Shown one piece after another: positions 20,643 to 38,196 of a stretch of DNA of 64,000 bases; position 1 is the stretch's first letter, and the number at the start of each line of letters is the position of its first letter. The stretch is from Comamonadaceae bacterium 2PF (GTDB lineage: Bacteria; Pseudomonadota; Gammaproteobacteria; Burkholderiales; Burkholderiaceae_C): positions 1 to 64,000 of the forward strand of contig SCMV01000011.1 in the NCBI GenBank assembly GCA_005502875.1, written 5' to 3'. The translations under genes were made by a program, and so were the position numbers. The notes beneath the pieces are model-generated. The model was not told the origin of the DNA. It ran no database searches and saw only the letters and a list, made by a program, of their open reading frames with translations.

Positions 20643-21557
20643 GTGTATGCTTGGGGGCCAACCAGACCCGCCCCAGCAGACCACTTGCCCATCCTGATCG
20701 TCACCATCCTGGCTTTGTTGCTGATTGCCTGGCTCATCTGGCAGCCACGCCTGGTCACGCAACGGCGTGTGCGCCAGCAAACCCAGGCTTTCCCACCTGC
20801 CTGGCGGGCGATCATCCGGCGCAACGTGCCCCTGGCGGCATCCCTGCCTGCGGACCTGCAGGTTCAGCTCAGGCGCCACATCCAGGTCTTCCTGGCCGAG
20901 AAGGCCTTCGTCGGCTGCCAGGGCCAGGTCATCGACGACGAGGTGCGTGTGACCATCGCGGCGCAAGCCTGCTTGCTGCTGCTCAACCGTCCGAGCGACT
21001 ACTACCCGGCTCTCAGGCAGGTGCTGGTCTACCCAAGTGCGTTCGCGGTCGACATCGCGCACACCGACGAGATCGGCGTGGTGCAGTCCGGTCGCGACTG
21101 GCGAGCGGGTGAATCGTGGCAGGAAGGACAGGTCATCCTGTCATGGGAGGACGTGCTGGTTGGCGCCGCCGACCCCGGTGACGGCTGGAACGTGGTCGTC
21201 CACGAGTTCGCGCACCAACTGGACTCGGAGGCGGGGTTGACCGATGGCATCCCGGCGCTGCCCAGCGCTGCGCGGCAAGCCCGTTGGTCGAAGGTGATGC
21301 AAGCCGAGTTCGAGGCGCTGCTGGCTGCCCTGGATCGCGGGGTGGAAGACACCTTCCTCGACCCGTATGGCGCCAGCAACCCGGCCGAGTTCTTTGCGGT
21401 GGCGACGGAGGCCTTCTTCGAGCAAGGGCGCGAGCTGCGCGCGCACCACCCTGCGCTGTTCGAAGAGTTGCGGGCCTTTTACTGCGTTGACACCAGCGCC
21501 TGGCCGCCACCTCGTGTGCTCAGGCGCCCCGATCTGGCGCAGCAACGGGCCCATTGA
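20643..21557 (+). CDS. mtfA: MtfA-family (M90) zinc metallopeptidase
   Basis: The HEFAHQLDSEAG motif supplies the HExxH zinc site, and FAVATEAFFEQ supplies the downstream glutamate. Together with LVYPSAFAVD and the closing LRAFY this matches MtfA, the peptidase that regulates Mlc and glucose uptake in E. coli. Unlike the E. coli protein, this one has an N-terminal membrane anchor (ILIVTILALLLIAWLIW). No in-frame ATG exists. I give the GTG at 20643. TTG at 20685, directly before the helix, is an alternative. It is divergent from the GGDEF-EAL gene. Confidence 0.85.
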   Translation: MYAWGPTRPAPADHLPILIVTILALLLIAWLIWQPRLVTQRRVRQQTQAFPPAWRAIIRRNVPLAASLPADLQVQLRRHIQVFLAEKAFVGCQGQVIDDEVRVTIAAQACLLLLNRPSDYYPALRQVLVYPSAFAVDIAHTDEIGVVQSGRDWRAGESWQEGQVILSWEDVLVGAADPGDGWNVVVHEFAHQLDSEAGLTDGIPALPSAARQARWSKVMQAEFEALLAALDRGVEDTFLDPYGASNPAEFFAVATEAFFEQGRELRAHHPALFEELRAFYCVDTSAWPPPRVLRRPDLAQQRAH

Positions 21558-21714
21558 GGCGCCCAGCGCACGCCCCTGGGCTGCTGGCTCGGCGAGCTGA
21601 CCCGCGCGCGCACGGTGGTGGTGCGGGGGTTGCCAGCCAACTTGCCTGGCACCTGGCACCCAATTTGCATGTCCACTGACGAGAGCAGCTCGGACCGCGG
21701 TCACCGCTTCAGGG

Positions 21715-21836
21715 CTGAATGGGCGCTAGGGTTCCGAGTCGGTGTCACGCCGGCTGTCTGGTCCGAGAGCGCTCGGTCGCAACGGCAACAGCGGTGGCGG
21801 CTCCACGGAGGGACAAAAGCCCGGGAGGTCCTGATG
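21715..21836 (+). promoter_or_regulatory. Guanidine-I (ykkC) riboswitch
   Basis: The conserved aptamer blocks appear in order: CTAGGGTTCCG at 21726-21736, CTGGTCCGAGAG at 21758-21769 and GGACAAAAGCCCGGGAG at 21811-21827. The spacing is right. Free guanidine stabilises this aptamer. Downstream, CTTGTCCCGCCCCTCC can pair with the 3' part of the aptamer and lies beside the AGGAG ribosome site of the next gene. I therefore infer translational or termination control of cgdA onward. The preceding 157 bases (21558-21714) contain nothing else I can identify. Confidence 0.95.
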
Positions 21837-21896
21837 AAGGCGAAGAGCCGACACCAGAGTCTCTCGCGCTTGTCCCGCCCCTCCAGGAGTCAGACC

Positions 21897-22718
21897 ATGT
21901 CAGCCCAGCACCCCGAACACACCCTCGACAACCCGCCTGCCTCGACGCCGGTTGATGCCATCGCTCACTGGCAGCGTCTGCCAGCCGGCTCGCTGGCCGG
22001 AGTGAGCACCGACCACATCCTGTGGTCCGAACGCGTGCCAGGCGGTGGCCACTGGTCGTGGCGCCTCAAGCGAGGCACGGCCTTGCGCTTCGTGGCGCTG
22101 GGCGCCGACGCCAACGTGAGCGTGGTGCTCTACGCTGCGCACCAAACGCTCGAGCGCTACAACATGCCCGACTCGCTCAAGGCGCAGCACACGGCCCACT
22201 ACCGCCATGGCCACGTGCTCATGAGCGACATGGGCCGCTCGATGGCCAGCTTCACCGCCGACAGCCTGGGCTGGCACGACCCGCTGGGTGCCCTGCTCGA
22301 CACCCCCACCATGCAGCGGCGCTTTGGCGAGCACCGCTTTGAAGCCCACCGCAATGGCATGCACCGCTCGGGCAAGGACGGGCTGCTCATCGAAATCGGC
22401 AAGCATGGGCTGGGTCGCCGCGACCTGATCGCGCCGGTCAACCTGTTCAGCAAGGTGACCGTGGACGAAGAGGGGCGATTCCACTTCGCCGCCGGCCACA
22501 GCCAGTCAGGCGACTTCGTCGAGTTGCGAATGGACATGGACGTGGTGGTGGCTGTCTCGACCGCGCCCCACCCGCTCAACCCGAGCGAGGCGTACGCGCC
22601 GCCGCAGGTGGGCGTGGTGGCCTGGCGCAGCGGCCCGGCCCCGGCCGACGACTTCTGCCGCACCTTCCGGGGCGAGAACGCCCGCGCCCACCACAACAGC
22701 GACGTCTTCGCGCTCTGA
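21897..22718 (+). CDS. cgdA: Carboxyguanidine deiminase subunit A (formerly urea-amidolyase-associated protein 1, DUF1989)
   Basis: This 273-residue DUF1989-family protein lies directly under the guanidine-I riboswitch. It has [23 protein letters not shown] near the start, the [20 protein letters not shown] segment and an [21 protein letters not shown] end. CgdA and CgdB form a hetero-complex that deiminates carboxyguanidine to allophanate and ammonia. AGGAG at 21884-21888 supports the ATG. The next gene follows after 20 bases and is a paralogue, so the subunits arose by duplication. Confidence 0.9.
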
Positions 22719-22738
22719 GCACCCCAGGAGGCCACGCC

Positions 22739-23419
22739 ATGAACGCACCCCAAGCGACCGCCATCCGCATCCAGCACAGCCCCCTGCTTGAGGCCGATGC
22801 CATCCTCAACCAGCGCCACCCGGCGGGCGAGCCCATCCTCTTTCAGGTCAAGCAGGGCCAGACCCTGCGCATCGTCGACCTGGAGGGCAACCAGGCCGCC
22901 GACGTGATCTTCTACAGCGCCGATGACCTGGCCGAGCACTACAGCGCCACCGACACGCTGCTGCACCAGGGCGGCATCTACCTGACGACCGGCTCGGTGC
23001 TGATGAGCAACGAAGGCCGCCCGATGCTCACCATCACGGCCGACACCTGCGGCCGACACGACACGCTGGGCGGGGCCTGCGCGGCCGAGAGCAACACCGT
23101 TCGCTACGCGCTGCAAAAGAAGTTCATGCACAGCTGCCGCGACAACTACCTGCTGGCCATCCAACACGCCGACATCGGTCTGGACAAGGCCGACCTGGTG
23201 CCCAACGTCAACTTCTTCATGAACGTGCCGGTGACGGCCGATGGCCAGTTGACGTTTGCCGATGGCGTCTCGGGCCCCGGCAAGTACGTGGAGATGCGCG
23301 CCGAGATGGACGTGTGGGTGCTGATCTCGAACTGCCCACAGCTCAACAACCCCTGCAACGCCTACAACCCCACGCCCATCCAGCTGCTGGTGTGGGACCC
23401 GGTTGAGGCCGTGAACTGA
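22739..23419 (+). CDS. cgdB: Carboxyguanidine deiminase subunit B (formerly urea-amidolyase-associated protein 2, DUF1989)
   Basis: This 226-residue DUF1989 protein is related to the upstream subunit. It has [28 protein letters not shown] in outline, then [24 protein letters not shown], and [23 protein letters not shown] with conserved cysteines and histidines that could hold metal. CAGGAGG precedes the ATG. It works with CgdA in converting carboxyguanidine to allophanate in the cytoplasm. Confidence 0.9.
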
Positions 23420-23479
23420 GCAGCTGGCCCAAGCCTTGCTGAGCTCCCACCGAGTCGATCACATCCTGTTCAAGACGGC

Positions 23480-23525
23480 CAGCGGGACGGCCCGCTGCGC
23501 GACACACGCCCGCGGGACGGCCCGC
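23480..23525 (+). promoter_or_regulatory. Guanidine-II (mini-ykkC) riboswitch, two ACGG-loop hairpins
   Basis: Two stem-loops with the same ACGG tetraloop lie just before the carboxylase ATG. The first is CAGCGGG-ACGG-CCCGCTG at 23480-23497 (7 bp). The second is GCGGG-ACGG-CCCGC at 23512-23525 (5 bp), with a 14-base linker. Paired hairpins with GGG-ACGR-CCC tips are the definition of the guanidine-II class. The second stem ends only about 14 bases before the start codon, close to the weak GGA ribosome site at 23528-23530, so guanidine binding probably frees translation. It lies inside an operon already under guanidine-I control. Confidence 0.85.
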
Positions 23526-23539
23526 TCGGAAGCGCTCCC

Positions 23540-26500
23540 ATGTTCGACAAGGTCCTGATCGCCAACCGAGGCGCCATCGCCTGCCGCATCATCCGCACGC
23601 TCAAGGCGCTGGGTGTGCGCAGCGTGGCCGTCTACTCCGAGGCCGATGCCAGCGCGCGCCACGTGCGCGAGGCCGATGAGGCCTTCTGCGTGGGCCCGGC
23701 TCCGGCGGCCGAGAGCTACCTGCGCGCCGACGAGATCCTGCGCATCGCGCGCGAAAGCGGAGCCCAGGCCATCCACCCCGGCTACGGCTTCCTGTCGGAG
23801 AACCCGGGCTTCGCCGAAGCCTGCGAAGCGGCGGGCATCGCCTTCATCGGGCCGAACGCCGATCAGATGCGGGCCTTTGGCCTGAAGCACACCGCGCGCG
23901 AGCTGGCTCAGCGCAGCGACGTGCCCCTGCTGCCCGGCTCGGGCCTGCTCGATGACATCGCCAATGCGCAGCTTGAGGCCGCGCGCATCGGCTACCCCGT
24001 CATGCTCAAAAGCACGGCGGGCGGCGGCGGCATCGGCATGCGCCTGGTGCGGTCGGATGCCGAGCTGGCCGACGCCTTCGCCGCCGTGCAGCGCCTGGCC
24101 TCGGCCAACTTCAAGGACGCCGGCCTGTACCTGGAGAAGTTCGTCGAGAACGCTCGCCACATCGAGGTACAGGTGTTTGGCGACGGGCGCGGCCAGGTCA
24201 TCGCCCTGGGCGAGCGCGACTGCTCGGTGCAGCGCCGCAACCAGAAGGTCATCGAAGAAACGCCGGCGCCTGGCTTGAGCGAGGCGCAACGACAGGCCTT
24301 GCTCGACACCGCTGTGCGCCTGGCCCAGGCCGTGAACTACCGCTCCGCCGGCACGGTGGAGTACGTGTACGACGCCGACACGGCGCAGTTCTACTTCCTG
24401 GAGGTCAACACCCGGCTGCAGGTCGAGCACGGCGTGACCGAGCAGGTCTGCGGCGTGGACCTGGTGGCCTGGATGGTGAAGCTTGCTGCCGGCGAGCTGC
24501 CTGAGCTCACCTCGCTGCAACCCCAGCCACAAGGCGCCTCCATCCAGGTGCGCCTGTACGCCGAAGACCCGGCTCGCAACTTCCAACCCAGCGCGGGCTT
24601 GCTGACCGAGGTGAGCTTCCCGACCTGCGCCGAGTTGAACGCCCGCGTGGACGGCTGGGTCGAACGCGGCACCGAGGTGCCCGCCTGGTACGACCCGATG
24701 CTGGCCAAGCTCATCGTCACCGCAGGCACCCGTGAGCAAGCCCTGGCCAAGCTCGACCAAGCCCTGGCCGACACCCGCCTGGCCGGCATCGAGACCAACC
24801 TGCCCTACCTGCGCCAAGTGGTGAAGCACCCGGTGTTCCGCGAAGGTCGCCAGGTCACGCGCTTTCTGAGCACCTTCGCCTTCCAGCCCGACACCATCGA
24901 GGTGCTGGCCGCTGGCGTGCAGACCGCCGTGCAGGACTGGCCTGGCCGCCAGGGCCTGTGGGACGTGGGTGTGCCGCCTTCGGGCCCGATGGACGCCCTC
25001 GCCCACCGCCTGGCCAACCGCCTGGTGGGCAACGCGCCCGACGCCGCCACGCTGGAATGCACCCTGGCCGGCCCGACGCTGAAGTTCCACGTCGACACCG
25101 TCATCGCGCTCACGGGCGCGCCCATGCCGGCCGAGCTCGACGGACAGCCACTGAGCCTTTGGCAAAGCCACGCCGTGCGCGCCGGCAGCGTGCTCACCCT
25201 GGGCCGCGCCGAAAGCGGCCTGCGCAGCTACCTGGCCGTGGGCGGCGGCCTGGACGTGCCCACCTACCTGGGCAGCCGCGCCACCTTCACGCTCGGCCAA
25301 TTCGGTGGCCACGGCGGGCGCAACCTGCGCGTGGGCGACGTGTTGCACCTGGCCACACCCGGCGCCGGCACCGCAGGCCATCAGGTGTCGGCCGAAGCCC
25401 GCCCCCACATCGGTCAGCACTGGGACATCGGCGTGCTCTACGGCCCGCATGGCGCGCCCGACTTCTTCCAGGACGAGGACATCGCCACCTTCTTCGCCGC
25501 CGACTGGAAGGTGCACCACAACTCCAGCCGCACCGGCGTGCGCCTGATCGGGCCCAAGCCGAAATGGGCCCGTACCGACGGTGGTGAGGCCGGCCTGCAC
25601 CCCTCCAACATCCACGACAACGCCTACGCCATCGGCGCCATCGACTTCACGGGCGACATGCCCGTCATCCTCGGCCCCGACGGCCCGAGCCTGGGCGGCT
25701 TCGTCTGCCCGGCGGTGGTGGTCAACGCCGAGCTGTGGAAGCTGGGCCAGCTGCGCCCCGGTGACACGGTGCGCTTTCACCGCATCTCGGCTGTGCAGGC
25801 CGCGGAACGCGAGGCCGTGGTCGAAGCCAGCATCCACACGCTCAACACGCCCTTGCCCGCGGCGCCCCACGACCACGCTCACGCCTGCGTCAGCCCCATC
25901 CTGGCCGACGTGCCGGCCGATGGCGAAAAGCCCCACGTGGTGGTGCGTCAGGCCGGCGACCGCTACGTGCTGATGGAGTTTGGCCCGCTGGTGCTCGACC
26001 TCGAGCTGCGCTTTCGGGTGCACGCGCTCATGGCCGAGCTGAAAAAGCTCAACGGCGGTCAGGGCCTGGCCGGCGTCATCGACATGACCCCGGGCATCCG
26101 CTCGCTGCAGGTGCACTTCGACCCGGCCGTGCTGCAGCGCGACGAGCTGCTGCGCGTGTTGCTCGACGTCGAAGACCACCTGCCGCCGCTGGACGACATC
26201 ACCATCCCCAACCGCGTGGTGCACCTGCCGCTGTCGTGGGACGACGCGCAAACGCGCCTGGCCATCGAGAAGTACATGCAGTCGGTGCGGCCCGACGCAC
26301 CCTGGTGCCCCAGCAACATCGAGTTCATCCGCCGCATCAACGGCCTGGACAGCATCGAAGAGGTCTTCAACGTCGTCTTCGACGCCAGCTACCTCGTGCT
26401 CGGCCTGGGCGACGTCTACCTGGGCGCGCCCGTGGCCACGCCGGTCGACCCGCGCCACCGCCTGGTCACAACCAAGTACAACCCGGCGCGCACCTGGACA

Positions 26501-27193
26501 CCCGAGAACGCCGTGGGCATCGGCGGCGCCTACCTGTGCGTCTACGGCATGGAAGGCCCGGGCGGCTACCAGTTCGTCGGGCGCACGCTGCAGATGTGGA
26601 ACCGCTGGCGACATGGCGAACAACAGGGGCAGGCAGTCCATCCGGCATTCGCGCAACCCTGGCTGCTGCGCTTTTTTGACGAGATCCGCTTCCACCCCGT
26701 CAGCGAAGACGAACTGCTGCGCATCCGCGCCACCTTCCCGCACGGCGGCTACGCGCTGAAGATCGAAGACAGCAGCTTCAACCTGCGCAGCTACCGCCAG
26801 TTCCTCGCCGATCAGGCCGACAGCATCGCCGCGTTCAAATCACGCCAGCAAGCGTCGTTCGAGGCCGAGCGCCAGCGCTGGATCGCGAACGGCCAGGCCG
26901 ACTTCGCCAGCGAAAGCGACGTGGCCAGCGCCAGCCCCGACACCGAGCTCGACCTGCCCGAGGGCGGCCGCTTCGTGGCCACCAGCGTGCCCGGCAACGT
27001 CTGGCAGGTGGCCGTGAAGGAAGGCCAGACCGTGAAAGCCGGCGAGGTGCTGGTGGTCGTCGAGTCCATGAAGATGGAGTTCGCCATCACCGCCCCCTGC
27101 GACGGCACCGTGCACCGCGTGCTGTGCCGCGAAGGCGCGCCCGTCGCAGCCGGTCAGGACGCGCTGATCCTGATCGAACAACGCCCGAACTGA
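23540..27193 (+). CDS. Guanidine carboxylase (biotin-dependent, urea-carboxylase family)
   Basis: This 1217-residue enzyme has a biotin carboxylase domain at about 1-450 (ATP loop [13 protein letters not shown]). AHS/KipI-KipA-like domains make up the carboxyltransferase (about 470-1060). The C-terminal biotinyl domain has ESMKME, biotin lysine about 1178. It carboxylates guanidine using ATP and bicarbonate, and the product goes to CgdAB. Classical annotation would be urea carboxylase. The two guanidine riboswitches and cgdAB argue for guanidine as substrate, with urea probably used less well. Confidence 0.9.
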
Positions 27194-27241: not shown

Positions 27242-29131
27242 ATGAGCCCGACCGAGATCGCGTCCCAGCCCCCCGCCAACGACCTCAGCCAACTGAGCTT
27301 CGACCTCGCCAGCTTGCGCTGCGCCTACCGCCAGGGCCTGAGGCTGCGCGATGTGATCGCCGAAGCCGCACGCCGCTGTGCGAGCGACGCCCACCACGCC
27401 TTCATCCACCGCCTCAGCGAGGCCGAGCTCGAGCCCCACCTGGCACGACTGGAAGGCCTGGACGCCAGCAGCCTGCCGCTCTACGGCGTGCCTTTTGTCA
27501 TCAAGGACAACATCGACCTGGCGGGGGTGCCCACCACCGCCGCGTGTCCTGAGTTCGCCCACACCCCGAACGCCAGCGCCTTCGTGGTGCAGCGCCTGCT
27601 GGATGCGGGCGCCATCCCGATGGGCAAAGCCAACCTCGACCAGTTCGCCACGGGCCTCAATGGCACGCGCTCGCCTTACGGCGCCTGCGCCAACGCCTTC
27701 GATGCGGACTTCATCAGCGGCGGATCCAGCTCCGGCTCGGCCGTGTCCGTCGCCAAAGGCTGGGTCAGCTTCTCGCTGGGCACCGACACGGCTGGATCGG
27801 GTCGCGTGCCCGCCGCCTTCAACAACCTGATCGGCCTGAAGCCCACGTGTGGCCTGCTCTCGACCACCGGCGTGGTGCCCGCCTGCCGCTCGCTCGACAC
27901 GGTCAACATCTTCGCGCTGCACGCGGGTGACGCACACGACGTGCTGCAGGTGGCCGCCGGCTTCGACAACAACGACGCCTTCAGTCGAACCGCCGCGCCA
28001 CACGGCGTGGATTTCTCGGGCGGCCCGTTCCGCTTTGGCGTGCCGCGCGAGCAAGACCTCGCCTTCTTTGGCAACGACGCCGCCCGCAAGCTCTTTGATG
28101 CGGCGGTGCAGCGCGCCATCTCTCTCGGTGGCACCCCCGTCGAAGTCGACTTCTCGCCTTTCCTCGAAACCGCGCGCCTGCTCTACGAAGGCCCTTGGGT
28201 CGCAGAGCGCTACCAGGCCATCCGCGACTTCATCGACGAACAGCCTGAAGCGGTCTTCCCTCCGGTCCGCAGCATCATCGAAGCCGGTCGTGACAAATCG
28301 GCCGCTGACCTGTTTGCCGCCCAGTACCGCCTCAAGGCCCTCAAGCGCGCGTGCGACCAGGTCTGGCAAACCGTGGACTGCCTGCTCACCCCCACGGCCG
28401 GCACGATCTACCGCATCGCCGAGATGCAGGCCGACCCGATCCGCCTGAACAGCCACCTGGGCCACTACACCAACCACATGAACCTGCTGGACTACGCCGC
28501 CGTGGCCGTGCCCGCAGGCTTCCTGGCCGATGGCGATGCCGCCGGCCTGCCCTGGGGCGTGACCTTCGCAGCCCCCGCGCACAAGGACATCTCGCTGCTG
28601 CGCCTGGCCGACCGATTCCAGCGCAGCCTCTCGTTGGAGGTCGGCGGCTACACACTGGGGGCCACCACCACGTCCCTGGCCAATGTGGACAAGATGGGCG
28701 AGCCCGTCGGCTTGTTGACCGACAACCCGGCGCGCAGCGGCACCATCCCCGTGGCCGTGTGCGGCGCCCACCTCAGCGGCCTGCCGCTCAACCCGCAGCT
28801 CACCTCGCGCGGTGCGCGCCTGCTCTGCGCCATCGACTCGGCGCCGCGCTACAAGCTCTTCGCCCTGCCCGGAGGCCCCGTCGCCCGCCCCGGCATGGTC
28901 CGCGTGCCCGAAGGGGGGCAGGCCATCCCGCTGGAGGTGTGGGAGGTGCCTGCCGAGCACTTCGGCAGCTTCGTGGCCGGCATCCCCGCGCCGCTGGGCA
29001 TCGGCAAGGTAGAGTTGGCAGACGGCCGCGTGGTGCCTGGCTTCATCTGCGAAGGCATCGGCACCGAAGGCGCCACCGACATCACGCACTTTGGCGGCTG
29101 GCGCGCCTACCTGGCCAACCGAAGCACCTGA
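27242..29131 (+). CDS. atzF: Allophanate hydrolase
   Basis: This 629-residue protein has an amidase-signature domain with the Ser-Ser-Lys triad: lysine in VIKDNIDLAG near 85, and the serines in GGSSSGSAVSVAKG near 160-173 and in DTAGSGRVPAA. A C-terminal allophanate hydrolase domain (about 470-629) has VCGAHLSGLPLN and PGMVRVPEGG. It splits allophanate into two ammonia and two CO2, the last step of the guanidine route. It is 48 bases downstream of the carboxylase and in the same operon. Confidence 0.92.
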   Translation: MSPTEIASQPPANDLSQLSFDLASLRCAYRQGLRLRDVIAEAARRCASDAHHAFIHRLSEAELEPHLARLEGLDASSLPLYGVPFVIKDNIDLAGVPTTAACPEFAHTPNASAFVVQRLLDAGAIPMGKANLDQFATGLNGTRSPYGACANAFDADFISGGSSSGSAVSVAKGWVSFSLGTDTAGSGRVPAAFNNLIGLKPTCGLLSTTGVVPACRSLDTVNIFALHAGDAHDVLQVAAGFDNNDAFSRTAAPHGVDFSGGPFRFGVPREQDLAFFGNDAARKLFDAAVQRAISLGGTPVEVDFSPFLETARLLYEGPWVAERYQAIRDFIDEQPEAVFPPVRSIIEAGRDKSAADLFAAQYRLKALKRACDQVWQTVDCLLTPTAGTIYRIAEMQADPIRLNSHLGHYTNHMNLLDYAAVAVPAGFLADGDAAGLPWGVTFAAPAHKDISLLRLADRFQRSLSLEVGGYTLGATTTSLANVDKMGEPVGLLTDNPARSGTIPVAVCGAHLSGLPLNPQLTSRGARLLCAIDSAPRYKLFALPGGPVARPGMVRVPEGGQAIPLEVWEVPAEHFGSFVAGIPAPLGIGKVELADGRVVPGFICEGIGTEGATDITHFGGWRAYLANRST

Positions 29132-29166: not shown

Positions 29167-30465
29167 ATGCTCGACCTCCTGATCCAGAACGCGAACCTGC
29201 CCGATGGGCGCCAACGCATGGGCGTGGCCGTTCAGAACGGCCTCATCGTGGAGGTCACCGAGGGGTTGACCGCGCAGCAAGCCCCGGCGCGCGAAGTGGT
29301 CGATGCAGGCGGGCTGCTGCTCAGCCCGCCCTTCGTGGACGCCCACTTCCACATGGACGCCACGCTCAGCCACGGTCTGCCTCGCGTCAACCAGAGCGGC
29401 ACCTTGCTCGAAGGCATCGCGCTGTGGGGAGAACTCAAGCCCGATCTCACGCAGGAAGCGGTGATGGCGCGCGCCCTCGCCTACTGCGACTGGGCCGTGG
29501 CCCGTGGCCTGCTGGCCATCCGCACCCACGTCGACACCTGCGACCCCCGCCTGCTGGCCGTGGACGCGCTGCTCGAAGTCAAGCGGCGCGTCGCCCCCTG
29601 GGTCGACCTCCAGCTCGTCGCCTTCCCGCAGGACGGCGTGCTGCGCTCGCGTGGCGCCTGGGAGTTGCTGCAAGAAGCCTTGCGCCGTGGCGTGGACGTG
29701 GTGGGCGGCATCCCGCATTTCGAGCGCACCCAGGCCGATGGCGCCGCCAGCGTGCGCATGCTCTGCGAGCTCGCGGCCGAACAAGGCAAACGGGTCGACA
29801 TGCACTGTGACGAGTCCGACGACCCGATGTCGCGCCACATCGACACGCTCACCGCCGAAACCCAGCGCCTGGGCCTGCACGGCCGCGTCACCGGTTCGCA
29901 CCTGACCTCCATGCACAGCATGGACAACTACCACGTCAGCAAACTCATCCCGCTGATGGCCGAGGCCGGCATCAACGTGGTGGCCAACCCGCTGATCAAC
30001 ATCACCTTGCAGGGCCGCCACGACGCCTACCCCAAGCGGCGCGGCATGACCCGCGTGCCCGAGCTGCTGGCCGCGGGTGTGCCCGTGGCCTTCGGTCACG
30101 ACTGCGTGATGGACCCCTGGTACAGCCTGGGCTCGGGCGACATGCTCGAAGTGGCACACATGGGCCTGCACGTGGCGCAGATGACCGGTCAGGCCGCGAT
30201 GCGTCAGTGCTTCGATGCCGTGACCAGCACGCCAGCGCGCATCCTGGGGCTCGATCACTTCGGCCTGCAGGCGGGCTGCGAAGCCAGCTTCGTGTTGCTG
30301 CAGGCGCGCGATCCCGTCGAAGCCTTGCGGCTGCGCGCCCACCGCCTGCGGGTGTACCGGCGCGGCCAACTGCTGGCCCACAGCGAGCCCGTGCAGACCA
30401 CACTTGCCCTGCCGGGTCGCCCAAGCAGCACGCGGTTTTTCTGGCCAGCGCCCCCCAACCCCTGA
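29167..30465 (+). CDS. Cytosine-deaminase-like amidohydrolase
   Basis: This 432-residue protein is of the CodA type. Metal ligands are seen as DAHFHMD near 58-64, VDMHCDESDD near 213, SHLTSMHS near 246 and FGHDCVMDPWY near 312. The YPKRRGMTRVPELL block is typical of CodA. The residue after the metal-binding Asp is Cys (GHDC), where E. coli CodA has Asp (GHDD), a position that influences substrate choice. It closes the guanidine operon, 36 bases after atzF. The substrate may be creatinine or another cyclic amidine, but that is inference. Confidence 0.82.
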   Translation: MLDLLIQNANLPDGRQRMGVAVQNGLIVEVTEGLTAQQAPAREVVDAGGLLLSPPFVDAHFHMDATLSHGLPRVNQSGTLLEGIALWGELKPDLTQEAVMARALAYCDWAVARGLLAIRTHVDTCDPRLLAVDALLEVKRRVAPWVDLQLVAFPQDGVLRSRGAWELLQEALRRGVDVVGGIPHFERTQADGAASVRMLCELAAEQGKRVDMHCDESDDPMSRHIDTLTAETQRLGLHGRVTGSHLTSMHSMDNYHVSKLIPLMAEAGINVVANPLINITLQGRHDAYPKRRGMTRVPELLAAGVPVAFGHDCVMDPWYSLGSGDMLEVAHMGLHVAQMTGQAAMRQCFDAVTSTPARILGLDHFGLQAGCEASFVLLQARDPVEALRLRAHRLRVYRRGQLLAHSEPVQTTLALPGRPSSTRFFWPAPPNP

Positions 30466-30504
30466 GTGCACGGAGCCTGCCCGGGGCAGCAGCCCAATCG
30501 GCCG

Positions 30505-31044
30505 TCAGCCCTGGCCCGCTGACATGGGATGGGGCGGGTGCAATGGCGGCATGGTCGCGGCCATCAGCTGCAGCCGCCCGGTGACCACGCCGCGCAACGC
30601 GGTCATGCGGTTGGCGATGGCCTGCAGCCGGGCGGCTGGCCCCTGCACCAGGATCACCTCCATCATCTGCTGGCCCATCAGGTGCACGTGCAGCGAGCTG
30701 ATGACCTCGTCGATGTGGTCGCACTGCAGGTCGGCCAGCTCCTTTTGCAGGCCGCGCACCGAGCGGTCGTAGAGCAAGGTGATGGTGCCCACCATCACCT
30801 CATCGCCCAGCTGGCGTTTGTGCTCGAGCAACTGCAGGTTGATCATCTCCGAGATGGCCTGAGACCTGCTCTCGAAGCCGCGAGCCGACACCATGCCGTC
30901 AAGTTCGGCCAACAGGTCTTCCGGCATGGACACGCTGATGCGCGCCACGGGGCTGTTGCGCTGATCGGTTGGCGAAACCACAGCGGGAGGCGGGTTGCTC
31001 GGCATGGCGAAGGGCCCTGGTTGATCCTGTGAGTGGTCCGACAT
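30505..31044 (-). CDS. nikR: NikR-like ribbon-helix-helix regulator with altered metal site
   Basis: This 179-residue protein has an N-terminal ribbon-helix-helix (ARISVSMPEDLLAELDGMVSARGFESRSQAI) after a proline-rich extension. A C-terminal ACT-like domain with LHVHLMGQQMMEVILVQG follows. Against E. coli NikR, the ligands H87 and H89 are kept in LHVH. By alignment H76 becomes Cys and C95 becomes Met. It ends the - strand operon with glnT and the ABC transporter, with no nickel genes nearby. It may sense a different metal or none. The MSDHSQD start was chosen. MPSNPPP at 31005 is possible. Confidence 0.8.
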   Translation of the reverse strand: MSDHSQDQPGPFAMPSNPPPAVVSPTDQRNSPVARISVSMPEDLLAELDGMVSARGFESRSQAISEMINLQLLEHKRQLGDEVMVGTITLLYDRSVRGLQKELADLQCDHIDEVISSLHVHLMGQQMMEVILVQGPAARLQAIANRMTALRGVVTGRLQLMAATMPPLHPPHPMSAGQG

Positions 31045-31096
31045 TGTGGCCTGCGGCAGGTGGCCCCGGTGTCCGTGGACCAGGGCCACACAGGCA

Positions 31097-32482
31097 TCAG
31101 AACATGTGGCTGTAGCGCTCGACTTCCCACTGGCTGACCGACAGGTGGTAGGCCTCCCACTCCTGCGTCTTGTAGGTGATGAACTCGTCGCGCAGCTCCT
31201 TGCCCAGCGTGCGCTCGACCAGCGGGTCGGCGGCGAAGGCCTGCACCGCCTCCTGCAGCGTCTGCGGCAGGAAGTCGATGCCGCGCTCGCGGCGCTGAGC
31301 GTCGCTGAGCTCGTACAGGTTGTCCTCGTTGGGCAGGCCTGGGTTCAGGCCTTCGCGGATGCCTTCGAGCCCGGCGGCCAGGGCCAGCGCCGCCGCCAGG
31401 TAGGGGTTCACCGCGCCATCGGCGTTGCGCGACTCGCAGCGCCCGCCACCGGCCGGGATGCGCACCGAGTTGGTCCGGTTGTTCGAGCCGTAAGAGTTGA
31501 ACACCGGCGCCCACGAGAAGTAACTCATGGCGCCGCGCCGCACCAGGCGCTTGTAGCTGTTGACCGTGGGCGCGAAGGCCGCGCACAGGGCCCGTCCATG
31601 CTTGAGGATGCCGGCCACGAACTGGTAGCCCAGGGGCGTCAGGCCGATGCCGCGCGGGTCTTCTTTCGGGTCGCAGGCGAACAGGTTCTTGCCCGTCTTG
31701 AGGTCGTACAGCGACATGTTGAAGTGCGCGCCCGTGCCCGTCTTGTTGGCAAAGGGCTTGGGCATCATCGTGGCGAGCAGGCCTTCTTCTTCGGCGTAGT
31801 GCTTGGCCATCATGCGAAAGAAGGTCAGGCGGTCGCAGCTCGTGAGCGCGTCGCTGTAGTTGAAATCGAACTCGAACTGGCCGTTGGCGTCCTCGTGGTC
31901 GAACGAGTACAGGTCCCAGCCCAGCTCGTTGATGCAGCCGCCCACCTTGTCGAGCCAGCTGAAGTTGTCCATGAAGCCCTGCACGTCATAACAGGGCTTG
32001 ACCAGCTTGTCGTTGGCATGCGGCACGGCCAAGCTGCCATCGGCCTGCTTTTTCAGCAGGTAGATCTCGCACTCGATGCCCAGGTTCATGCCAAAGCCCA
32101 TCTCGGCGGCCTGCGCCAGCACGTTCTTGAGCGCCACGCGGGTGCTCAGGGGGTAAGGCTTGCCCTGGAAGTGGTTGTCGGCCGGCATCCAGGCCACCTT
32201 GGGCTCCCAAGGCAGCTGCACGATGTGATCGAGGTCGGGCACCGAGGTCAGCTCGTCGTCGTTGGGGGCCTGGCCCAGGCCGTCGAGCGCGTAGCCGGTG
32301 TAGCGCTCGGAACCCGCCGCCATCTGCGGCAGGTGGTCGATGGGCACGACCTTGGCCTTTTGCACGCCATGGATGTCGACGTAGGCGCCGATGCAGTACC
32401 TCACACCCTTGGCTTTGAGCGACTGCTGGATGGCGGCGATCTCTTCGGGCGACTTGACGGGGAACAACTCAGGGGACGACAT
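31097..32482 (-). CDS. glnT: Type III glutamine-synthetase-like ligase (GlnT)
   Basis: This 461-residue protein is of the glutamine synthetase fold. It has the ECEIYLL metal strand, [14 protein letters not shown] for the HxN loop, [13 protein letters not shown] for the glutamate and phosphate site, and [20 protein letters not shown] at the core. Members annotated as type III glutamate-ammonia ligase occur in nitrogen-scavenging operons and some form gamma-glutamyl amides instead of glutamine. It lies between the creatininase-like and NikR-like genes, so it probably captures ammonia or an amine released by the pathway. Confidence 0.85.
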
Positions 32483-32593
32483 GGACGGACTCCGGGTTTG
32501 AGAACGGACGACGAAGGGCCTTCGGGCTCGTGGCCCGAGGACGGAGAGGGTCGGTTGGCGATGTGGCTGCCTTGCGCAGTCAGCAATCGGCGA

Positions 32594-33391
32594 TCAGCAA
32601 GGCGAGGCGGAACCGGGCGGACCGGCAGCGCCCCAGCAGGGATCGAAATACGAATGCGGCAACGGAGGCCCTTGCGTGAGCCCCTTGCGGATCAGAGCAG
32701 ACAGGTCCTGCACCATCCAGCCAAAGGCCTCGAGGCCTTTGTCGGCCGTGGCGCGGCTAGGGAAGCCCGTCACCCCATTGGCGCTGGTGCGGTTGACTGG
32801 GTGCGCGAACACGTGTCCATCGGTGCGATCGGGGTCATCGCCTTCGGCCAGCTTGTCGGGCCGCACCATCTCGGGCGACACCGCCAGCATCAACGAGGTC
32901 TCGGCATCGTTGGCATGCCAGTCCACCGCATCGGCAAAGTGGAATGCCCTGACCCGCTCGCTGATGTCCGGCGAGTTGATGACGGCCACCATCAGGTCGT
33001 CGTGCTCGGCGCGCAGCATCTCCAGCGCGCAGCGCAGGGGCGCCGCGTTCGTCACGTGCGTGTTGACGATGAACAGCCTGCGCACGCCGCTGTGATAAGC
33101 CCCGTCACCGATCTGCTTGACGAGCTCGATCAAGGTAATGGGCTGCACGGCGATGGTGCCCGGCCAGCGGCGGCTGTGGCCCAGCGAGCAGCCATACGGC
33201 AGCGGCGGCAACATCGGCACGCCGGTGGCCTGCGACACCGCGCGGCAGAGCTTGTCGGCGATCTCGGTGTCCATGCCGCAGCCCATGTGCGGGCCGTGCT
33301 GCTCGGTCGCGCCCACGGGCAGGATGGCGGCCTGGCCAACGGCCTTCAAGGCATCGGGCAACTCGGCCCAGGTCAGGTGAGACCAGAACAT
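32594..33391 (-). CDS. Creatininase-family amidohydrolase
   Basis: This 265-residue protein has family metal residues in TEQHGPHMGCGMDTE (E30, H32, D41), an NTHVTN loop in place of the usual NGHGGN (H112), and DWHANDAETS in place of HAGExETS. The deviating NTHVTN and HANDAETS suggest a substrate other than creatinine. AGGAG precedes the ATG. It follows the ABC transporter ATPase gene after 10 bases, which links it to the imported compound. Confidence 0.82.
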   Translation of the reverse strand: MFWSHLTWAELPDALKAVGQAAILPVGATEQHGPHMGCGMDTEIADKLCRAVSQATGVPMLPPLPYGCSLGHSRRWPGTIAVQPITLIELVKQIGDGAYHSGVRRLFIVNTHVTNAAPLRCALEMLRAEHDDLMVAVINSPDISERVRAFHFADAVDWHANDAETSLMLAVSPEMVRPDKLAEGDDPDRTDGHVFAHPVNRTSANGVTGFPSRATADKGLEAFGWMVQDLSALIRKGLTQGPPLPHSYFDPCWGAAGPPGSASPC

Positions 33392-33401
33392 GGCGGGCTC
33401 C

Positions 33402-34322
33402 TCACTCGACGTCGTCGCCGACGTTGGTCAGGCGGATCACCTGGGGCACCACGTCCGGCTCGGGGTCGCCCTCGGTGTGCTCGGTCGGTGGGTGGATCAA
33501 GGCCTCGATGTGCGCCTTGGTGGCGCGGAACTCGGGGCTGTTGAACTGCAGCGGGCTGCGCGGGCGCGGCACCGGCACCTCGATGAGCTCCTGCACCTCG
33601 CCCGGGTGCGCCTTGAGCACCAGGATGCGGTCGGCCAGGTACACGGCCTCGTCCAGGTCGTGCGTGATGAACAGGATGGTGATGTCGATGTTGCGCCAGA
33701 TCTCCAGCAGGTGCGCCTGCATCTTGGCGCGCGTCTGCGCGTCCAGCGCGCCAAAAGGCTCGTCCATCAACAGGATGCGCGGCTGGTTGGCCAGCGCCCG
33801 CGCGATCGCCACGCGCTGCTTCATGCCGCCCGAAAGCTGGTGCGGGTAGGCATCGGCGAACTTGGTCAGGCCCACCAGCTCCAGCCACTGCCGCGCCTGC
33901 GACTCGGCCTCGTTGCGCCCCGCGCCATTGACCTCCAGCCCGAACATCACGTTCTTCTTGACCGTCAGCCACGGGAACAGCGTGTAGCCCTGAAAGACCA
34001 TGCCCCGGTCCTTGCCAGGGCCCTGCACCGGCTCGCCATCGAGCAGCACCTGGCCACTGCTGTAGGACTCCAGCCCCGCCAGGATGCGGATCAGCGTGGA
34101 CTTGCCGCAGCCCGACGGCCCCAGCACGCACACGAGCTCGCGCCGGTGGACCCGGAAGTCGACGCCTTTGAGCGCCGTCACCGGCCCCTGGTGCGAGTCG
34201 TAGACCTTGCCCAAGTCCTTGACCTCCAGCACCACGTCGCGCGCCTTGAGCCGATCGAATCGAGCCTTCACGGCCTCGGACTGATCGCGGTAGCTCACGT
34301 TGGAAACTGCGTTGTCGCTCAT
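33402..34322 (-). CDS. NitT/TauT-type ABC transporter ATP-binding protein
   Basis: This 306-residue protein has Walker [10 protein letters not shown]-loop QGYTLFPW, signature [15 protein letters not shown], Walker [12 protein letters not shown] and the H-loop in FITHDLDEA. It is the nucleotide-binding subunit for a small nitrogen or sulfur compound importer. An extra C-terminal region of about 40 residues ([14 protein letters not shown]...) is unusual. It starts at ATG 34322. A GTG nine bases upstream is possible. Confidence 0.9.
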
Positions 34323-34346
34323 GTCATGCACCCCGAGATCCCGCGA

Positions 34347-35312
34347 TCAAGACTTGCCCTGAGAGCGATCCCAGGGAAAGAGCCGTCGCCCCAGCCACGC
34401 CAGCACCAGGTCGATGCCCAGCCCGATGATGCCGATCATGGCGATCGCCGCGTAGACGTTCTCGAAGTGCTGGTAGCGCGCCTGCTGCGTGATGAAGAAG
34501 GTGATGCCCGAGCTGGTGCCGATCAGCTCGGCCACGATCAGGTACGTCCAGGCCCAGCCCAGCAGCACGCGCTGGTCGCGGTACAGATCGGGCAGGATGC
34601 CGGGCAGCACCACGCGGCTGAGCAGCTTCCAGCGTTTGGTGCCCAGCGTCAGCGCCGCTTCGAGCAGGCCGAACTCCAGCTTGCGCGTGGTGTTGGCGAT
34701 CACCAGCACCTGCTGAAAGAAGGTGCCGATGACGATGATGGCGATCTTCGGGCCGTCGTGGATGCCCAGGATGGCCACCGCCAGCGCCCCGAAAGCCGGC
34801 GCAGGCAGGTAGCGAAAGAATTCGATGAAGGGCTCGTTGAGCCGCGAGATCGGCGTGTAGACCCCGCACAGGATGCCCAGCGGCACGCCGATCAACGACG
34901 AGATCACGAAGCCCCAGAAGATCACCTGCATGCTCTGCCACAGGCTCTCGTGCAGCCACAGGCCGTCCTTCTGCTCGGGCGCCGTGGTGAAGGCCGTGTA
35001 GAAGGCCCGCGCCACCTCGTGCGGCGCCGGCAGGTAGACCGGGTTGGCTGGCGTGCCCTGCGGCGGCGCCTTGCCCGCCTCCTGCATGGCCGACACCTCT
35101 TCGGCGAACAGCGCGCGGTCCATGCGCATGCCCACCTCCAGGTAGTCGACGTCGCCCACCGAGCTCACCAGCACCTGCGGGTGCCACAACCAGGGCACGT
35201 AGCTCACGGCGGCCCACAGCAGCAGCGGCAGCAGGAACGAGCCGATGCCCAGCAGCAGCTTGCGTCGAGGCGTCAGGGGCGCGCGCACGGCGAACCAGGC
35301 GGAGGCACTCAT
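34347..35312 (-). CDS. NitT/TauT-type ABC transporter permease
   Basis: This 321-residue inner-membrane protein has about six helices and the EAA-loop EAALTLGTKRWKLLSRVVLPGILPD. A long periplasmic insert (roughly residues 45-110) after the first helix is typical of SsuC/TauC-like permeases of the urea and guanidine-associated type. It sits between the binding-protein gene and the ATPase gene and should form the channel. Confidence 0.9.
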   Translation of the reverse strand: MSASAWFAVRAPLTPRRKLLLGIGSFLLPLLLWAAVSYVPWLWHPQVLVSSVGDVDYLEVGMRMDRALFAEEVSAMQEAGKAPPQGTPANPVYLPAPHEVARAFYTAFTTAPEQKDGLWLHESLWQSMQVIFWGFVISSLIGVPLGILCGVYTPISRLNEPFIEFFRYLPAPAFGALAVAILGIHDGPKIAIIVIGTFFQQVLVIANTTRKLEFGLLEAALTLGTKRWKLLSRVVLPGILPDLYRDQRVLLGWAWTYLIVAELIGTSSGITFFITQQARYQHFENVYAAIAMIGIIGLGIDLVLAWLGRRLFPWDRSQGKS

Positions 35313-35449
35313 GGTGATCCCGTTGTGCAGGTTTCAAAGGGGGTGCGAGGGGCCGACGCTGGCTCGATGACCAAGTGACACGCCGGCCCGTCGCTCGACA
35401 CGCTCAAACGCTCAACCGCCGCACGACTCGGCGATCGAGGCACACAGGC

Positions 35450-36454
35450 TCATTTGGCCGCCGCGTTCGTCAGCGACGCATCGATGTAGCCGTCGATCGG
35501 CTGGGCCTTCTTGTAGACGTCGTTGGCCACGTTGAAGTCATCGGCGATCTTGGTCGAGCCATGCAGCGACTTGAAGCCCTCGCCCTTGGCCATGATGGCC
35601 TTGCCTTCCTTGAGCGACAGCAGCTTGGTGCCCTTGAGGAAGCTGCCGTAGGCCTCGGCCGGCACGCCCACGCGCGCGGCCATGATCTTGAGCGCCTCGG
35701 GCTGGGTCTTGGGGTCGTTGATGAAGCTCACCACCTTGTCCCACACGAGCACCACCTTCTGCCACTCGGCCTTGCGCGCGGCCAGGCTGGTGGGGCTGAC
35801 GGCCAGCACGTCGTAAATCAGGCCCGGCTCGTCGGCCGAGGTGTAGATGGGGCGCGAGCCCGGCAGTCCTTTGATGGCCTGACCGGCGATGGGCTGCCAG
35901 GCGCCCACGGCGGCCACGTCGCCCGAGGCCAGCACCTGCGGCATCTCGTTGGTCTTGGCGTTGACCAGGGTGACGTCCGACTCCTTCATGCCCGCCTTCT
36001 TCAGGCCATTGAGCAGCAGCAGGTGCTCGACCAGGCCGAACTCCACCGCCACCTTCTTGCCCTTGAGGTCCTTGAGCGACTTGATGCCGGGCTTGCCGAT
36101 GATCATGTCGTTGCCGTTGGAGTAGTCGGTCAGCATGATCATGACGCTGCGGGCACCACCCGCGCCGGTGACCAGGGCATCGCCGTTGGTCATGGTCACG
36201 GCGTCGATCTTGCCGGCCGCGAAGGCCTCCATCGAGGCCGAGTAATCGAACCACTCGAACTTGACGTCCACGCCCGCCTGCTTGAACCAGCCCTTGTCGA
36301 TGGCCACCTGCCAGGCCACCCAGCCCGGCCAGTCGCTGTAGCCCACCTTCAGCGGCTCAGCCGCCCAGCTGACCTGCGACCCCACCACGGCGGCCACGGC
36401 CACCACGGCCTTGACCCCACCCACCAGACGCTTCAAAACGGCTTCAGACAACAT
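35450..36454 (-). CDS. ABC transporter periplasmic substrate-binding protein (NitT/TauT type)
   Basis: This 334-residue protein has an N-terminal signal peptide ending VVGSQVSWA. The mature protein begins [20 protein letters not shown], the common start of nitrate/taurine/urea-type binding proteins. It has the [11 protein letters not shown] hinge region. It is the first gene of the - strand operon. The likely ligand is a nitrogen compound related to guanidine, inferred from context only. Confidence 0.88.
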
Positions 36455-36469
36455 GATCGGCCCATCCAC

Positions 36470-36500
36470 GGTTATTACGGATTGAACAAGTGGTAATACC
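36470..36500 (-). promoter_or_regulatory. Possible GntR/FadR-type operator upstream of the ABC operon
   Basis: On the - strand GGTATTACC (36492-36500) forms a near-perfect palindrome, and GTAATAACC (36470-36478) faces it, 14-46 bases before the start codon. GntR-family regulators often use GGTxxxACC sites. No ykkC-type element is visible here. This is a pattern match only. Confidence 0.3.
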
Positions 36501-36670
36501 GAAGATGCCAATGCATCAAGCGTGCCAAGGGCTTTTGCCTGGGAAACGCCTGTGCTGATGGGTGAGGTGGTGCAGCGGGCTGCCTGAGCACACCCCAAAG
36601 CCGGGAGCCGCCGCACCGCCGCTGTGCGCCCTGTGCACCGACACCGATGCACAGCGTCGCGGGAAGGCGT

Positions 36671-36808
36671 TCAGCCCAGTTGGCGCATGAAACCCAGGCC
36701 CAGCAAGACAACGCTGCCCAGCATGCAGGCAACGCCCAACAGCGCCATCCACAGTCCGAGGCGGCTGCGGGCGCGGTCATCCAGCGTGATCAGGCGGCGC
36801 GTGGGCAT
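36671..36808 (-). CDS. Small single-helix membrane protein
   Basis: A 45-residue frame, MPTRRLITLDDRARSRLG followed by a membrane helix WMALLGVACMLGSVVLLGLGF and a short tail. A longer frame starts at 36931 but its extra part looks random. Tiny proteins of this type are common near tRNA genes, but support is weak. The 214 bases between it and the tRNA contain nothing I can identify. Confidence 0.4.
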   Translation of the reverse strand: MPTRRLITLDDRARSRLGLWMALLGVACMLGSVVLLGLGFMRQLG

Positions 36809-37022
36809 GGTGGGTGGGCAAGGTGTCAGCGCATTGCAAAGGTCGCGCCTTGGCATGGCATCCGGGGCATCCCGAACAAGCGACGGCCTTCGCGGGTTGT
36901 CCGAGTTGGGGACAACACCGATTTGTGACAATGTGCGTCAAAACGCTGAGCTGCGGTGCCACGAAAAACGGGCAAATGACCGCGCGAACCGTCGCTCTCC
37001 CGAGCGGCGACCCAGGTCAGGG

Positions 37023-37101
<79 letters not shown>

Positions 37102-37176
37102 CCTGAAAACAGTCCGCGATTGTAGGCGGGCCTTGCAAGCCCCACCCTCACCGCTCAGCTCGGGTTCACGCCCGAT

Positions 37177-38196
37177 TCACTTTTGACTCAAGGCGTTCGA
37201 CACCAGCCGCGAGGTGATGTCCACGATCTCGATCATGCGGTCGTAGGCCATGCGCGTCGGCCCGATCACGCCCAGCGTGCCGACCACCCGTCCGTCGATC
37301 TGGTACGGGGCCGAGACCACCGACAGCTCTTCAAAAGGCACGACCTGGCTTTCGCCGCCGATGTAGATGTTGACGCCCTCGGCGCGGCTGGAGCCGTCGA
37401 GCAGGCGCATGAGCTGCGTCTTTTGCTCGAAAAGGTCGAACATGCGGCGCAGCGAGCCCATGTCGCTCGAAAAATCCTGCACCGTCAGCAGGTTGCGCTC
37501 GCCAGAGACGACCACGCTCTCCTGCGATTCGGCCTCGACCTCGCTGCCAGCCTGCACCGCCGCCTGCATCAGGCTGCCGATCTCGGTGCGCAACTGATCA
37601 ACCTCGCGCTTGAGCCGCTCGCGCATCTCTTCGATGGTCAGGCCGCTGTAGTGCTCGGTCAGGAAGTTGCTGGCCTCGATCAGTTGGGCGGGGTTGTAGT
37701 CCTGCGCGGTGAAGATGACGCGGTTCTGCACGTCACCGTCGGGCGAGACCAGGATCACCAGCAGGCGCTTTTCACCCAGGCGCAGGAACTCGATGTGGCG
37801 AAACACCGTGGCCTTACGCGGCGCCGTGACCACGCCCACGAACTGCGACAGGCTCGAGAGCATCTGCGCCGCGTTGGAGATGACGCGCTGAGGCTGGTCG
37901 GGCTGGAGCTGGTCGCGGGTCTCGGCCGAGAAGTCGCCCATGTTCAGCGGACGCGCCGTGAGCATGGTGTCCACGAACAGGCGGTAACCGCGCGCGGTGG
38001 GCACGCGCCCGGCCGAGGTGTGCGGGCTGACGATCAGACCCAGCTCTTCGAGGTCGGCCATCACGTTTCGGATGGTGGCGGCCGAGAGCTCCAGCCCTGA
38101 AGCACGAGACAAGGTGCGCGAGCCCACGGGCTGCCCGTCGGCGATGTAGCGCTCGACCAGCGCTTTCAACAGGATCTTGGCACGGTCATCCAGCAT
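37177..38196 (-). CDS. hrcA: Heat-inducible transcription repressor HrcA
   Basis: This 339-residue protein has an N-terminal winged helix ([29 protein letters not shown], then [18 protein letters not shown] and [16 protein letters not shown]) that is diagnostic for HrcA. The GAF-like central and C-terminal parts follow. It represses groE and dnaK class genes by binding CIRCE elements. No CIRCE palindrome was seen in its own upstream region. It is divergent from nadK, an arrangement common in betaproteobacteria. Confidence 0.95.

Follow-up and report, generated by a model that had tools for sequence, protein, structure and literature searches.

Published two-class guanidine riboswitch operons

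The operon of Vreelandella boliviensis is one of the closest described systems in which two classes of guanidine riboswitch are set in one series of guanidine-assimilation genes. The parts of Sinn et al. 2025 (PMC12508155) drawn on here place a Guanidine-I element at the start of this operon and a Guanidine-II element between cgdB and gca, describe the layout as occurring "like in several other bacteria" and cite Nelson 2017 for it. According to the same parts, in-line probing showed that the Guanidine-I RNA bound guanidine and, in the tested range, not methylguanidine, and the Guanidine-II RNA binds guanidine and methylguanidine alike in vitro. In addition, the operon carries an ABC transporter and mgdH/mgdL. 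A like layout is given for three guanidine-using enterobacteria in the consulted sections of a 2025 review (PMC12186494). In the published model of Guanidine-II action, as taken from excerpts of several sources including Huang 2017, guanidine binding leads to a loop-loop contact that frees the Shine-Dalgarno sequence. Further literature was drawn on in excerpt (PMC9094411, PMC11410670, PMC5486947, PMC9800807).

The window analysed in this study comprises positions 1 to 64,000 of the forward strand of contig SCMV01000011.1 (GCA_005502875.1, Comamonadaceae bacterium 2PF), and features are on its plus strand unless stated otherwise. Rfam models and gene profiles locate a Guanidine-I element upstream of an operon and a Guanidine-II element between cgdB and gca, both on the same strand as the genes. 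As far as the cited parts of the V. boliviensis paper go, the two operons have in common the Guanidine-I element at the start, the Guanidine-II element between cgdB and gca, and the pathway genes; unlike in V. boliviensis, Guanidine-I in the window has cgdA as its immediate downstream neighbour, and the pathway genes are followed by one for a cytosine-deaminase-like protein. With the enterobacteria, as outlined in the review sections, the window shares a Guanidine-I group containing the carboxyguanidine deaminase, followed by a Guanidine-II group with carboxylase and allophanate hydrolase, whereas importer genes belong to the Guanidine-I group of the enterobacteria and are absent from that of the window. 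Since this layout has already been published for other proteobacteria, the window represents another case of a known arrangement. The locus is very probably a guanidine-assimilation operon in which two guanidine-responsive ON switches follow one another, arranged as in those organisms.

The guanidine operon of Comamonadaceae bacterium 2PF

Profile matches give the gene order cgdA, cgdB, carboxylase, allophanate hydrolase and cytosine-deaminase-like gene, which bears out the sequence-only reading of this DNA, where the carboxylase gene had been named as the third of the operon. The two carboxyguanidine deiminase subunits are encoded by cgdA (21897..22718; UAAP1, TIGR03425, 325.6 bits, cut-off 205.95) and cgdB (22739..23419; UAAP2, TIGR03424, 338.2 bits, cut-off 284.7); we take UAAP1 and UAAP2 to be CgdA and CgdB. 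The third gene, gca (23540..27193), encodes a guanidine carboxylase of 1217 aa that matches the NCBIfam model named urea carboxylase (TIGR02712, 1891.3 bits, cut-off 1303.85), and a gap of 48 nt separates it from the allophanate hydrolase gene (27242..29131; TIGR02713, 787.7 bits, cut-off 511.05). The cytosine-deaminase-like amidohydrolase gene (29182..30465; NF005748, 765.9 bits, cut-off 438) is possibly the last gene of the operon; it also follows the allophanate hydrolase gene in the near relatives L068-L070 and is unmatched in L071-L073. The operon genes and both RNA elements would be carried on one transcript. A simple scan of 21550-23600 found no sigma-70-type promoter and thus lends no support to an internal promoter at 23420-23480.

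The substrate of the carboxylase can be judged from a single specificity position. Asp702 of the window enzyme (GAIDFTGD) aligns with an Asn of the urea amidolyase chain of K. lactis (Kluyveromyces lactis; GAINFTGD). This Asn is presumably N1330, which agrees with a count along the alignment. Asp occupies the position in 80 of 80 relatives, these being the best 80 of at least 581. According to the sections used of the 2025 review (PMC12186494), Asp is characteristic of guanidine carboxylases and Asn of urea carboxylases, and with Asp at this position the window enzyme is predicted to be a guanidine carboxylase. Among the matches listed, Aquabacterium parvum is the nearest named relative, with a carboxylase that is 94% identical.

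On the minus strand, a gene cluster pointing at the guanidine operon (30505-36652) encodes a substrate-binding protein, a permease, an ATPase, a creatininase-like hydrolase, a type III glutamine synthetase and a NikR-like regulator. This cluster perhaps serves to take up guanidine or a compound related to it; an Rfam search of 30460-37200, with E-values of 2 or less considered, found no further guanidine riboswitch near it. In other loci, glnA3-nikR either immediately precedes cgdA in the same orientation (e.g. L096, L097, L101-L103, L105-L108) or is convergent and downstream (L071-L073, L104). A weak hammerhead II match inside cgdB (22948-23016; 23.3 bits against a cut-off of 37) is probably due to chance.

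The Guanidine-I leader

The leader of the operon contains a Guanidine-I (ykkC) riboswitch aptamer, which Rfam RF00442 matches at 21715..21829 with 86.1 bits against a gathering cut-off of 63; the sequence-only reading, which had set the element at 21715-21836 before cgdA, is thereby confirmed. The segment CGGGAG at the end of the aptamer (21822-21827) has the potential to pair with CTCTCG (21861-21866), and the two may form a switching hairpin (21822..21866). Both segments are invariant in seven of seven aligned leaders, the window included. The tail after CTCTCG is T-poor, and a simple scan of 21550-23600, including this leader, found no intrinsic terminator meeting its rules. The Guanidine-I switch would lie at the CGGGAG/CTCTCG pairing: guanidine bound to the leader may keep the aptamer end from pairing with CTCTCG, allowing transcription to enter the operon.

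The Guanidine-II element

The Guanidine-II (mini-ykkC) riboswitch element is located at 23479..23525, immediately before the carboxylase gene, and matches Rfam RF01068 over all 48 model positions with 28.9 bits (E 0.0026; bias correction 5.6 bits). As this score falls short of the gathering cut-off of 32, the element is missed at the default threshold and was found with an E-value threshold. The cut-off is a threshold set by the curators, not a structural trait, and we think that the shortfall is a scoring effect of the G+C-rich sequence. The covariance-model check proposed with the sequence-only reading matched both families, Guanidine-I above its cut-off and Guanidine-II below it, and the two ACGG-loop hairpins claimed at 23480-23525 ahead of the carboxylase gene are indeed there. 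P1 (23480-23497) has 7 bp and P2 (23512-23525) has 5 bp, each with an ACGG loop, and the spacer between them (23498-23511) measures 14 nt; the spacer is at least 13 nt in the great majority of Guanidine-II RNAs, according to the part of Huang 2017 drawn on. The family traits present are two GC-rich hairpins with ACGR tetraloops and a spacer of at least 13 nt in the window, and two-sided stem change among its relatives. The window element thus resembles RF01068 in its GC-rich ACGR-loop hairpins, its 14 nt linker and its place before a carboxylase gene, and differs in scoring slightly under the gathering cut-off and in that the five loop-closing pairs of P1 and P2 are identical.

The score below the cut-off and the bias correction could suggest that two GC-rich palindromes have come together at 23479-23525 by chance, and the folding energy of 23420-23575 is likewise not unusual (z 0.17; 114 of 200 shuffles are as stable). 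Against this, a search for paired hairpins with ACGR loops, stems of 5 bp or more and a separation of 3-45 nt returned this pair and no other on either strand of the window, besides 13 single ACGR hairpins, and 20 sequences obtained from the window by dinucleotide shuffling contained no pair. Across the genome, where 150 of 791 first-look candidates were scored, the second-best Guanidine-II hit reaches 17.6 bits (E 0.66). Moreover, the element recurs at the same place in relatives, where it exceeds the Rfam cut-off in 7 of 12 scanned loci, including L071-L073 with 33.2-38 bits; the five below it are L068-L070, L130 and L140. Together with the two-sided changes in the stems described below, these observations reduce a chance origin to a negligible probability, and it was rejected on the shuffles and the conservation.

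Conservation of the Guanidine-II stems

The stems were compared across the 57 sequences, the window among them, for which two hairpins had been called; 40 distinct P1 stems and 10 distinct P2 stems occur in this set. The hairpin caller is rough and requires ACGN loops and four pairs, so that pairing of the inner four positions arises by construction and only two-sided changes and outer pairs count. Pair 3 of P1 is G-C in 30 distinct stems, A-T in 5, C-G in 4 and G-T in 1; pair 3 of P2 is G-C in 7 and A-T in 3. Outer pairs 5, 6 and 7 of P1 are standard in 38, 34 and 33 of the 40 distinct stems, respectively, as is pair 5 of P2 in 10 of 10. Near relatives L068-L073 closely share both the Guanidine-I and the Guanidine-II element. 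For both RNAs, the analysis directly supports their presence, location and conservation; it equally supports the two-sided changes of the Guanidine-II stems and, by sequence, the identities of the enzymes.

Even if real and conserved, the hairpins between cgdB and gca might have another task, namely to adjust subunit ratios through mRNA stability or processing with no sensing of guanidine. Their location in an intergenic gap would suit such a role, as would the lack of Shine-Dalgarno masking in the folding test below. The loops speak for a ligand-binding element instead: both are ACGR in 48 of the 57 sequences, which were chosen by ACGN loops and include the window, and one is ACGY in the other 9. 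In addition, the V. boliviensis Guanidine-II RNA, in the same operon position, binds guanidine in vitro in the cited parts of PMC12508155. A pure stability or processing role is accordingly considered improbable, and the hairpins are best read as a Guanidine-II riboswitch.

Among the best 80 of at least 581 carboxylase relatives, Guanidine-II-like hairpins with one ACGC or ACGT loop were observed upstream of gca in L096, L099, L101, L102, L106, L107, L108, L109, L111, L112, L116, L121, L125 and L143; most of these relatives bear labels such as Thiobacillus, Hydrogenophilales or Gallionellaceae. Five of these (L102, L106, L107, L112 and L121) are one-hairpin loci with ACGC in P2. Twelve of the 14 loci were scanned and 11 of the 12 fall below the Rfam cut-off; some also have an interrupted P1. 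The excerpt of Huang et al. 2017 describes this loop position as conserved as A or G, and no title or abstract start among the matches listed in a literature search dealt with ACGY-loop variants.

Folding around the carboxylase start

A probable Shine-Dalgarno sequence, GGAAG (23528..23532), follows right after P2, 7 nt before the carboxylase ATG. In a crude folding test, the Shine-Dalgarno-like stretch was defined as the best six-letter match to AGGAGG within a fixed stretch, and its mean unpaired probability over the 57 sequences was 0.40 in the free fold and 0.42 when both hairpins were forced. Forcing raised the value by more than 0.05 in 10 sequences and lowered it in 2; in the window, the values were 0.53 free and 0.51 forced. 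This simple test on 57 sequences gave no signal of Shine-Dalgarno masking by an anti-Shine-Dalgarno segment in the linker, and as it revealed no clear change in accessibility, the translational step rests on what is established for the family. When the window is folded without constraint, P1 strands pair with P2 strands and the two hairpins are not formed. This strand-swapped fold is not claimed as an OFF state, since a constraint to both hairpins carries no energetic penalty in L072 and L073.

Distribution of the two-class arrangement

The 80 carboxylase loci surveyed are the best 80 of at least 581 relatives, a sample that leans to near relatives, and 77 remain after leaving out 3 without readable upstream DNA. 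Among these 77, two hairpins were called before gca in 56, one in 9 and none in 12. The two-hairpin group includes L110 and L122, where the two hairpins are about 150 nt apart and the first may be a chance occurrence, and L086, which has no cgdB on its contig. In several of the nine one-hairpin loci, a second, interrupted hairpin is visible by eye. The gap between cgdB and gca is at most 26 nt in 11 of the 12 hairpin-less loci and 176 nt in L090.

In the DNA preceding gca, covered over at most 4 kb, 34 of the 80 loci were found to contain Guanidine-I. The whole genomes of 36 of the 46 loci with no nearby Guanidine-I were searched and 22 contained one; in fetched DNA, 19 of the 22 share the strand of gca and precede it by 4.2-6.8 kb, with L096, L097 and L101 unplaced. 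Ten loci with less than 4 kb before gca lay outside this search (L082, L086, L091, L098, L109, L121, L133, L136, L141 and L146). Both classes are therefore present in 42 of the 77 loci from the best 80, of which 39 have two called hairpins (38 if the spacing in L110 and L122 is due to chance, the total of 42 being unaffected). Of the 36 genomes searched, 14 have at least one called Guanidine-II-like hairpin ahead of gca, and no Guanidine-I was found in them (L102, L103, L105-L108, L110, L112, L116, L125, L134, L138, L143 and L144). Conversely, Guanidine-I occurs with no called hairpin in 11 loci of the sample (L081, L087, L090, L093, L094, L095, L124, L129, L132, L145 and L147).

In a separate set of 199 genomes, a stacked pair on one strand and within 8 kb was found in 21, that of strain 2PF included, and in 13 of these Guanidine-II exceeds the Rfam cut-off. 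The count used all 70 Guanidine-I rows and the 44 Guanidine-II rows whose E-value was 0.03 or lower; weak matches are lost to the stricter filters that apply once a search covers more than 40 genomes. In 18 of the 21 genomes, Guanidine-II was seen to be surrounded by cgdA, cgdB and gca; G019, G033 and G166 lay outside that check, and G166 has a weak Guanidine-II match (23.4 bits). The sequence-only reading had regarded the stacking of two classes as uncommon, a view that does not hold: the arrangement has been published for V. boliviensis, "several other bacteria" and enterobacteria, and it recurs in the 21 genomes and 42 sampled loci counted here.

Proposed regulation and significance

Most likely, in the presence of guanidine, Guanidine-I would let transcription go on and Guanidine-II would boost translation of the carboxylase. 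By analogy with its family, Guanidine-II may bind guanidine through its two ACGG hairpins in loop-loop contact and then raise carboxylase translation, so that the carboxylase, the ATP-consuming first enzyme of the pathway, would be made only when guanidine is present at the time of translation. It is plausible that the second sensor could set the carboxylase level apart from that of the deiminase subunits, which fits the published view of Guanidine-II as a translational switch.

A refinement of this scheme, not a full rival to it, proposes that Guanidine-I reads guanidine strictly and Guanidine-II also methylguanidine, the operon thereby integrating two signals. The difference in ligand range was measured on the V. 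boliviensis RNAs (cited parts of PMC12508155), but that operon, in the same account, has genes for methylguanidine demethylation between gca and atzF, where the corresponding gap in the window is only 48 nt; such integration appears rather unlikely here. Similarly tentative, and doubtful in our judgement, is the idea that the two RNAs are not redundant: a strict Guanidine-I would open the operon, and Guanidine-II, with a broader ligand range or a different threshold, would separately gate carboxylase translation, so that the amount of carboxylase relative to deiminase would follow the composition of the guanidino compound mixture. The one-ACGY-loop elements of some Thiobacillus-like relatives may rely on one good site to sense the signal or respond to a different ligand.

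The guanidine operon of strain 2PF, with its two ON switches most probably acting in series, extends the known two-class guanidine riboswitch operons to a lineage near Aquabacterium, and the layout is frequent among its near relatives. As these relatives comprise organisms with both classes, with Guanidine-I alone and with Guanidine-II alone, what the second sensor adds to the control of guanidine assimilation becomes testable.
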